Positions 3,836 through 6,162 of a stretch of 64,000 nt of DNA are shown here, one piece after another. The stretch comes from Natranaeroarchaeum aerophilus (GTDB taxonomy: Archaea; Halobacteriota; Halobacteria; Halobacteriales; Natronoarchaeaceae), in the NCBI RefSeq assembly GCF_023638055.1, contig NZ_JAKRVY010000001.1:627815-691814 (forward strand). Direction: 5' to 3'. A program made the translations under genes and the position numbers. The notes below the pieces were generated by a model. It searched no databases. It saw only the letters and a list, made by a program, of their open reading frames with translations, and was not told the origin of the DNA. How positions within the stretch are numbered: the first letter of the stretch is position 1; each line of letters opens with the position of its first letter.

Positions 3836-4469
3836 ACGGACACTGTGGGGCTGTCGACAAGAAAAGATACCGCCGTTCGGCTGACCGAAGATGTTCGGCC
3901 CAAACCGCTTCGCAGTGGGCGTGCTATCTCGTTGTATGGGGGAGACACGACAGCGCACTGGCGAGGCGGACGACCGCTCGAATGCCACGTCCGAAACCAC
4001 CGTCCAGGTTCGCTGTACCGGACACGTCCGGTCGGCAATCGGAACCGGTCGACTGGAGTATCAATTCGAGGGCCGAACGCTCCGGGAGTTCCTCGACGCG
4101 TTCTTCGCGGAGTACGACGTACGGGACATGCTGATCGCCGACACGGAAGCCGAGGCGACGACGCGGGGCTGGGCACCCCAACTCGACGAGCTCCCGGGCA
4201 CGTACGCGAAAAACCCCGAGGGAGAGCAGACCAGACGGTATGCACGGGTCGTCGTCAACGGAACGTTCAACGAACATCTCGACGGGCTCGATACGAAACT
4301 TCACAATGGCGACCGCGTTGCGCTCGTTTACAGCGGATCGAGGCGAAAGCCCACCGCTTTAGCGGTGGGATGAGGCCGACAACTGGGAATCGTTCAACGT
4401 TCGTAGCTCCAGCAGGATATTCAACATCAAGTACCAATATTTATGTAAGTAGAAGTACTATGCTTACGT

Positions 4470-5779
4470 ATGTCGAATCAGGTCATCACGCGGACACTCA
4501 AAGCGAGTATCCACAACCACTCGCAAGTCAGTGACGACCTCGATTCGCATGGCTTTGCCGCGTCGAAATTGTGGAACGTCGGGCGGTGGACAATCTCGCG
4601 TGTCTGGGACGCTATCGACCACATTCCAGACGCCGACGAACTGTGTTCGCACCTCAAAAATCACGAACGCTACGCAGACCTGCACAGCCAATCTAGTTCG
4701 TTCGAAAGACGAAGTCTTTCGTGATGCCAAAAATCTGCGATTTTTGAGCACAGCGAGTTCTTCAGGAACTCGGTGAGGCGTTTGTCTCGTGGTACGAACA
4801 GGACGACGCAGACGCGAACCCACCCGGCTACCGCAAACACGGTGATGACCACCCCCGCTCGACGGTAATATGGAAAAATCAGGGCTTCAAACTCGATACC
4901 CAGTACAACCGTGTTCGTCTCTCGAAAGGAACGAATATGAAGGAGTCGCGCTACGCGGCTGACTACATCCTCTGTGAATACACACTCCAGACAGACGACC
5001 AAACACTCGACGCTGTAGAGAGCGTCCAGACGGTGCGTGCTGTCTGGACTGGCGACGACTGGGAACTCCACTTCGTCTGCAAGCTGCGGATTGAGACCCC
5101 TGAGACCCCTGGTGAGAAGACGGCGGGTGTTGACCTCGGCATCTGTAACACGGCGGCTGTCTCTGTCGGTGACGAAACCGTATTGTATCCGGGCAACGCC
5201 CTGAAGGAAGACGCCCACTACTTCCGACAGCAAGAATACGACACGGAAGGCGAGAATGGCCCGAGCGACCACGCAACGTGGGCACGTCGGAAGAAATCCC
5301 GGCGACAAGAACATTTCCTGCACGCGCTGTCAAAAGACATTGTTGAGCAGTGTGCTAATCGTGGTGTTGGGACGATAGCAGTCGGTCATCCGAAGAAGAT
5401 CCGTGAGGATGAAGATTGGGGCCGGCACGGGAACAAACGCCTGCACGACTGGGCGTTTGAAACATTGCTCAGTCAGATCGAGTACAAAGCTGAGGAGTGT
5501 GGAATTGAGGTTGAACGGGTTGATGAGTACGAGTTGGCCACGTCGATAACGTGCTGTGAGTGTGGAATGAAAGCAGATTCAAACCGGGTTGAGCGTGGGC
5601 TGTACGTCTGTGAGAACTGCGAGCTGGCCGCCAATAGCGACCTGAACGCGGCAGAGAATATGCGAGCGACGGTAACTCCGAGTCCTGGGAAGGATAGGAG
5701 TAACGGCTGCTTGGCACAGCCATCGGTACGCCTGTTCGACAAATCAACGGGCAGAGTACGCCCACAAGAACAGGTGTGA
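4470..5779 (+). pseudogene. tnpB: tnpB (RNA-guided nuclease family), interrupted by a 53-nt insertion
   Basis: The frame runs 4470-4697, is broken by 53 extra bases (4698-4750) that bring a stop at 4722-4724, and resumes at 4751 to the TGA at 5777-5779. Without the insertion it would encode 418 residues, against 416 in the intact relative at 36813-38063. The RuvC-like core shows the first Asp in AGVDLGICNT, a C-terminal zinc ribbon (CCECG and CENC) and the last Asp in NSDLNAAENMR. At the usual RuvC-II Glu position the sequence reads TIAVGHPKKI, so the Glu is replaced. As it stands the gene cannot make full-length protein; a re-initiated 280-residue C-terminal piece from ATG 4937 is conceivable. 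Confidence 0.88.
4698..4750. repeat. 53-nt double-hairpin insertion inside tnpB
   Basis: Comparison with the intact tnpB shows exactly these bases as extra. They contain two perfect short hairpins side by side: CGAAAGAC-GAA-GTCTTTCG (4703-4721) and CAAAAATC-TGC-GATTTTTG (4728-4746). The size, not a multiple of three, and the in-frame TGA kill the reading frame. It looks like a miniature palindromic insertion and not gradual decay, because the frame resumes cleanly at CAGCGAGTTC. Confidence 0.8.
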
Positions 5780-5839
5780 CCGTAGACCCGAATATCCCAC
5801 CGTGGGAATCCCACGGCTTTAGCCGTGGGAGGATGTCAA
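5680..5839 (+). ncRNA. Candidate omega RNA (reRNA) region of the first tnpB element
   Basis: In TnpB systems the guide RNA is made from the 3' end of tnpB through the right end, with the guide taken from flanking DNA. Here bases from about 5680 match the second element closely at the DNA level (GGATAGGAGTAACGGCTG, then GGCACAGCC), and the right end carries the terminal hairpin. The guide would start at 5840 with CCGTTCATCTACTGCTGT, which is the MoaD-like gene's own 3' end. The 5' boundary is a guess. Confidence 0.5.
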
Positions 5840-5866
5840 CCGTTCATCTACTGCTGTTGAGTCGAG

Positions 5867-6142
5867 TCAGCCGCCGGCGACCGGCGGGAACGCGCTGATC
5901 GTATCGCCGTCGTCGAGGCCCGTCTCCATCCCGTCCATGTGCGCGACGTCTTTCCCGTTTTTCATTATCGTGATGTACTCCCGCGGCGTGCCGTCCGCCT
6001 CGAACACCTCCAGCTCCGGGTGCTCCTCGGCGAGCTCGCGGAGGACGTCGCCGACAGTCGCGCCGTCGGGAGCCGTCCGACTGAGCGTCTTCTGGCCGAG
6101 TGCTTCCCGGAAGCTGGCGAACGAACGAATCTCGATCTCCAT
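5867..6142 (-). CDS. samp3: SAMP3-like ubiquitin-like small archaeal modifier (MoaD/ThiS family)
   Basis: This 91-residue beta-grasp protein starts at ATG 6142 (MEIEIRSFASFREALGQK) and ends with a diglycine, FPPVAGG, the signature of proteins activated by the E1-like enzyme UbaA. The pattern around ATVGDVLREL, the MKNGKDVAHMDGM block and GLDDGDTISAFPP recalls Haloferax volcanii SAMP3, which is conjugated to target lysines. A GTG in frame at 6157 is an alternative start but would leave less room for the TATA box. It lies next to the broken MoaD-like gene, which lacks the GG end. A function in pterin sulfur transfer in place of, or besides, protein tagging cannot be excluded. Confidence 0.85.
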   Translation of the reverse strand: MEIEIRSFASFREALGQKTLSRTAPDGATVGDVLRELAEEHPELEVFEADGTPREYITIMKNGKDVAHMDGMETGLDDGDTISAFPPVAGG

Positions 6143-6162
6143 ACGCAATGCTGGCACTACAG

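Follow-up and report, generated by a model that had tools for sequence, protein, structure and literature searches.

Ends matching the IS608 code on a tnpB-containing insertion in a haloarchaeal MoaD-like gene, and a recurrent double-hairpin repeat inside its tnpB

The ends of IS608 (ISHp608) follow a code that consists of TTAC on the left (CL), TCAA on the right (CR) and the guides AAAG (GL) and GAAT (GR), with a C preferred directly after TTAC (PMC5934647). In haloarchaea, the IS605-type transposons and PATEs of Haloquadratum have near-terminal palindromes, lack terminal inverted repeats and produce no duplications, and many of the copies are tnpB-only and disrupted (PMC3119063). The same organism also carries the small mobile repeats SMR-A, which measure ~110 bp, are bounded by terminal inverted repeats and leave the target unduplicated. 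No transposase is known for them; they have a strong preference for the palindromes of IS605-type elements and PATEs, and their mobilisation has been called enigmatic (PMC3119063). TnpB is described as dispensable for IS605 transposition (PMC8612924).

We compared with these systems a locus in the window, the 64,000-nucleotide stretch of Natranaeroarchaeum aerophilus DNA that was analysed (Table 1). It is very probable that an IS608-type insertion at TTAC, most likely made by a TnpA acting in trans, interrupted a MoaD-like gene, and that the tnpB of the inserted element was knocked out by a recurrent double hairpin.

Table 1. Features of the interrupted MoaD-like locus, in window coordinates
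Feature	Position	Strand	Evidence
5' part of MoaD-like gene, 132 codons, ThiS/MoaD fold, ending GTTTAC	3936..4331	+	Pfam ThiS; 86% identical orthologue in G006
TTAC target tetranucleotide (CL), retained in left flank	4328..4331	+	IS608 rule (PMC5934647)
Inserted element, by sequence IS200/IS605 (IS1341-type, tnpB-only), 1508 bp, no target duplication	4332..5839	+	Absent from G006 and all other homologues
Left end: guide AAAG (4346-4349), then hairpin CCCACCGC-TTTA-GCGGTGGG	4346..4369	+	Single-strand DNA fold, z -3.05
tnpB, first 76 codons (MSNQV...HSQSS)	4470..4697	+	Intact relatives 88-90% identical
53-bp double-hairpin repeat between QSS and Q codons of tnpB, no target duplication	4698..4750	+	Comparison with uninterrupted tnpB genes
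tnpB, remaining 342 codons and stop, OrfB_IS605 and TNB domains, no further damage	4751..5779	+	
sot/omega-type RNA overlapping tnpB 3' end	5670..5830	+	Rfam RF02656 sot0042, 108.5 bits, E 9.2e-29, full-length
Right end: guide GAAT (5806-5809), hairpin CCCACGGC-TTTA-GCCGTGGG, cleavage site TCAA (5836-5839)	5806..5839	+	Fold z -5.13
3' remnant of MoaD-like gene, CCG TTC ATC TAC TGC TGT TGA (PFIYCC and stop)	5840..5860	+	Joined translation; G006 alignment
SAMP1-type ubiquitin-like modifier gene, neighbour, convergent with MoaD-like gene	5867..6157	-	NF041918 SAMP1, 1.3e-26, above cut-off

The MoaD-like gene and its empty site

The MoaD-like frame reads GDRVALVY at the end of the left flank and then enters the insert. 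When base 4331 was joined to base 5840, the translation ended in GDRVALVYPFIYCC followed by the stop, and the gene is uninterrupted, with this very ending, at locus L020 of G006, the only same-genus genome compared. The proposal of the earlier note that exact removal of the element rebuilds the gene is thus borne out. TTAC forms the last four bases of the left flank, the element ends on the right in GGAGGATGTCAA and the right flank is CCGTTCATCTACTGCTGTTGA, so that the site after removal of the element would read GTTTACCCGTTC. The junction is unshiftable: C at 4331 stands against A at 5839, and A at 4332 against C at 5840. G006 is co-linear with the joined window on both flanks over ~1.2 kb, and 20 of the 21 bases 3' of the junction are identical between the two. 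The element was found in none of 13 further haloarchaeal homologues, all of which end in PF-x-[YF]-C; ten have the CC ending, L027 and L029 have CL, and L033 was matched only up to PFVFC. Since G006 and every other homologue are without the element, an insertion in the lineage of the window is the simplest reading.

The product of the MoaD-like gene matched Pfam ThiS at 1.1e-5, above the cut-off of that model, and the matches to TIGR01687 moaD_arch (1.1e-7) and to the SAMP1 model fell below theirs. A PDB search with the rebuilt protein returned one weak match only, a molybdopterin converting factor subunit (E 0.03). At the place where MoaD and SAMP1 have a C-terminal GG, the rebuilt MoaD-like protein and its homologues carry a PF-x-[YF]-C[CL] tail. 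The same replacement of GG runs through the ThiS-fold family of L020-L032, and, judged by eye from the sequence, one neighbour in L027 resembles a copper nitrite reductase and one in L030 MoeA. The gene order of a DUF gene, the MoaD-like gene and SAMP1 is common to the window, G006 (L020) and Halovenus (L030). In the window, the interrupted product has lost the PFIYCC tail and gained SGSRRKPTALAVG from the element; a MoaD-like gene deprived of this conserved tail is presumably dead.

The inserted element matches all features of the IS608 code: the guides stand at the 5' feet of the subterminal hairpins, the cleavage sites fit, and base 5840, which directly follows TTAC in the joined site, is C. 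Of the 19 left ends compared, from the window element and its relatives, 18 have TTAC and the hairpin equally far apart to within one base, and TCAA closes nearly all related right ends. Together with the empty site in G006, these observations confirm the ends, the TTAC target and the lack of duplication that had been proposed earlier. The assignment to IS200/IS605 was likewise upheld by the TnpB family matches (NF040570, PF01385 and PF07282) and by the sot0042 match. A search for tnpA within 4332-5839 found none. This is the expected state in the IS1341 group, whose members have no tnpA and in which the element is filed. The element is thus, judged by its sequence, a tnpB-only IS200/IS605 (IS1341-type) insertion with IS608-type ends.

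It resembles IS608 in the left TTAC, the right TCAA, both guides, the C after TTAC and the lack of duplication (PMC5934647), and differs in having no tnpA, a broken tnpB and a haloarchaeal host. The likeness to the Haloquadratum IS605-type transposons and PATEs covers the near-terminal palindromes, the lack of terminal inverted repeats and duplications, and the tnpB-only, disrupted state that many of those copies share (PMC3119063); unlike there, the ends and the target are fixed here to the base by the empty site of a sister species. The insertion into the MoaD-like gene, taken alone, is an instance of an already known kind of event. The locus is a clean natural archaeal record of IS608-type chemistry, in which ends, target and guides fit the bacterial code.

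The element likely owes its mobilisation to a Y1 TnpA acting in trans. Elsewhere in the genome lie two genes for Y1 TnpA, both with open frames, and the element around one of them, L061, shares AAAG, GAAT and TCAA with the window element; against this mobilisation speaks the left flank of L061 itself, which is CACG, not TTAC. The most likely agent is a Y1 HUH transposase, such as the intact TnpA that another locus of the genome encodes; it would have inserted the tnpB-only element in single-stranded form immediately 3' of a TTAC among the final codons of the MoaD-like gene. Joining by TnpA-type single-strand chemistry would duplicate no bases, and for this reason the gene is restored when 4332-5839 is removed.

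The sot/omega-type RNA of the element matches sot0042 (RF02656), the haloarchaeal omega-RNA class, over its full length and has the same placement at the tnpB 3' end; no difference was noted. The guide of this RNA would extend into the right flank, that is, into the end of the MoaD-like gene, and would begin CCGTTCATCTAC. By analogy with known TnpB biology, one would expect the empty allele to be cleaved wherever TnpB is functional. An intact tnpB copy, L002, which is 88% identical to that of the window element, is present in the same genome.

A double hairpin at one codon junction of tnpB

The tnpB of the window element is dead, cut by a 53-bp double hairpin. The insert reads TCGTTC-GAAAGAC-GAA-GTCTTTC-GTGATG-CCAAAAATC-TGC-GATTTTTG-AGCA; it causes a frameshift and brings in an in-frame TGA. 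The QSSQ motif that it splits is common to every intact relative sampled, and in the clade of the window copy (L002, L092, L093 and L095-L097) there is no double hairpin and tnpB reads straight through. The tnpB coding sequence contains a palindrome with a strong DNA fold (z -4.0), at whose 5' foot the insertion is situated, and the insert contains no transposase gene.

Related double hairpins were found in 101 of the 392 haloarchaeal genomes searched. The same QSS/Q junction is occupied in at least 22 tnpB genes from several subfamilies (the window, L046, L047, L063, L065, L066, L068, L080 and L152-L165), by inserts of 53, 54 or 55 bases without target duplication. Inserts were 98-100% identical where the tnpB flanks were only 59-77% identical. 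The stems covary: in 20 diverse copies, 96.8% of the cells, which are counts of sequences and not of events, were paired, with 66 double-sided changes, a result that 0 of 500 shuffles reached.

Related double hairpins also occur at other sites. They lie within the Y1 tnpA genes of L051, L077 and L085, directly 3' of HVHLFLSAHPK in L051 and apparently read as the in-frame residues SSSENQRFSGSRETSSLERL in L077. In L066 and L046, a second tnpB double hairpin with other hairpins is located ~150-200 bases upstream of the main insert; that of L066 consists of GAAATC-TTC-GATTTC and GAGAGC-TTC-GCTCTC and is in frame as VLRKSSISDGLHESFALVN. L069, L073, L082 and L083, from four genomes of different families, have a common site beside the end of another tnpB family, occupied by double hairpins. 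In L039, L044, L045, L052, L054, L055 and L059, short intergenic elements start near CTAC/AG, end in CGGTTCAC or similar and form a long stem with the double hairpin at its tip, resembling PATEs invaded by the repeat. Hairpin 2 (CCAAAAATC..GATTTTTGAGCA) has 4 to 8 copies in each of the genomes G416, G425 and G432 (L175, L176), which belong to one genus of the same phylum outside the haloarchaeal class. A tnpA or tnpB gene was found within ~1.5 kb at 25 of 51 sampled double-hairpin loci as against 0 of 14 control loci, in a sample biased by a query taken from the tnpB site. An Rfam search with the double-hairpin loci outside tnpB gave no match.

The double hairpin inactivated the tnpB of the element in an event separate from the insertion into the MoaD-like gene. 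In its apparently repeated, seamless entry at QSS/Q of haloarchaeal tnpB genes, it would behave like the SMR-A small mobile repeats. Both are short, without a transposase gene and without target duplication, and the tnpB sites, at least 22, at which the double hairpin was found may reflect a preference like the strong one of SMR-A for IS605-type elements (PMC3119063). The double hairpin differs in having 53-55 bp, two hairpins in a row and a fixed site in the tnpB coding sequence, as opposed to the ~110 bp of SMR-A and its location in near-terminal palindromes. Because its length and ends depart from the description of SMR-A, which includes terminal inverted repeats, it was set apart and not filed as SMR-A. 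In the literature, searched in open-access papers only, we came upon no account of a repeat of 53-55 bp that occupies a fixed tnpB site, which is weak evidence of absence.

The distribution could also have arisen from an immobile repeat, by a single entry followed by many precise losses or by gene conversion between tnpB copies. We regard this as rather unlikely. Gene conversion would accord with the bases adjoining the insert, which are identical between tnpB subfamilies C and D, where short-tract exchange could mimic independent insertion, and with the two bearing copies each in G141, G294, G154 and G310; however, in the window copy (clade A), in L063 and in L046 the flanking bases are native to the gene itself right up to the junction. 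On a tnpB tree of 75 rows, presence of the double hairpin requires 16 changes, at least 9 of them forced by well-supported branches. Its clustering does not exceed that of permuted labels (145 of 500 shuffles were as low), a scatter that speaks against an immobile repeat. Bearers with flanks 91-93% identical differ in the sequence of hairpin 1, which is entirely different in L080 within one subfamily, and many genomes have members of this hairpin family at places other than tnpB.

The reading set against immobility is that of a haloarchaeal family of 53-55-bp non-coding double hairpins that insert seamlessly and site-specifically at one tnpB codon junction and at some other IS200/IS605 sites. 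Such a family would be a hyperparasite that inactivates RNA-guided transposon nucleases, and its insertion would possibly be due to the action of a HUH transposase on the hairpin DNA. To this reading as a whole we assign about even chances.

Age of the insertion and state of its parts

The earlier note held that the insertion must be young since both halves of the gene are undamaged. The interrupted gene indeed has no other damage; the element itself is damaged, as its tnpB carries the second insertion of 53 bp. The dN/dS of the truncated MoaD-like gene against G006 was 0.15, compared with 0.06 and 0.13 for the neighbouring genes, a difference without clear relaxation or strong decay. As dS has already reached ~0.5 and the right remnant comprises only 21 bases, the bound on age is weak, and a young insertion is plausible where the note had called it necessary. 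As a clock for either insertion, that of the element or that of the double hairpin, dN/dS proved uninformative.

The element might instead be a fossil, an old insertion that is no longer able to move, which we consider unlikely. A broken tnpB and an absent tnpA would be expected of a fossil, and there is a single same-genus genome for comparison. However, both ends, the guides and the target are perfect, neither the interrupted gene nor tnpB shows other damage, and IS605 transposition can dispense with TnpB (PMC8612924).

That tnpB survives the double hairpin, by archaeal bulge-helix-bulge splicing from the RNA or by ribosomal bypass, seems very improbable. In 13 of the 22 bearers the downstream frame reads through as far as the native stop, and dN/dS is 0.12 both in pairs with bearers and in intact pairs, as continued function would have it. 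Yet the fold shows no evident bulge-helix-bulge, take-off and landing codons that match were not seen, and several bearers (L046, L047, L065 and L066) have further stops or frameshifts. Recent insertion explains the equal dN/dS values as well, and these values fit a recent arrival of the double hairpin in tnpB.

Although the MoaD frame meets a stop only after 13 codons of the element, it is exceedingly improbable that the right flank matches by chance and that the element merely adjoins an intact MoaD-like gene, because the PF-x-[YF]-C end recurs in G006 and all 13 other homologues and the 21 bases in G006 are nearly identical with co-linear flanks. A search for homologues without a PFIYCC-like end, which would have spoken against the earlier reconstruction, yielded the identical ending in G006 and the common pattern elsewhere, and the intact homologues ruled out a gene that naturally ends at another place.

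Significance of the nested repeat

The nested repeat matters more than the insertion into the MoaD-like gene, and the novelty of the locus rests on it. A gene-free element of ~54 bases that recurs at one tnpB junction throughout the haloarchaea would make the mobilisation of small mobile repeats, so far "enigmatic", directly testable. If the reading as a mobile family is true, TnpB nucleases would have a natural off-switch in the double hairpin.
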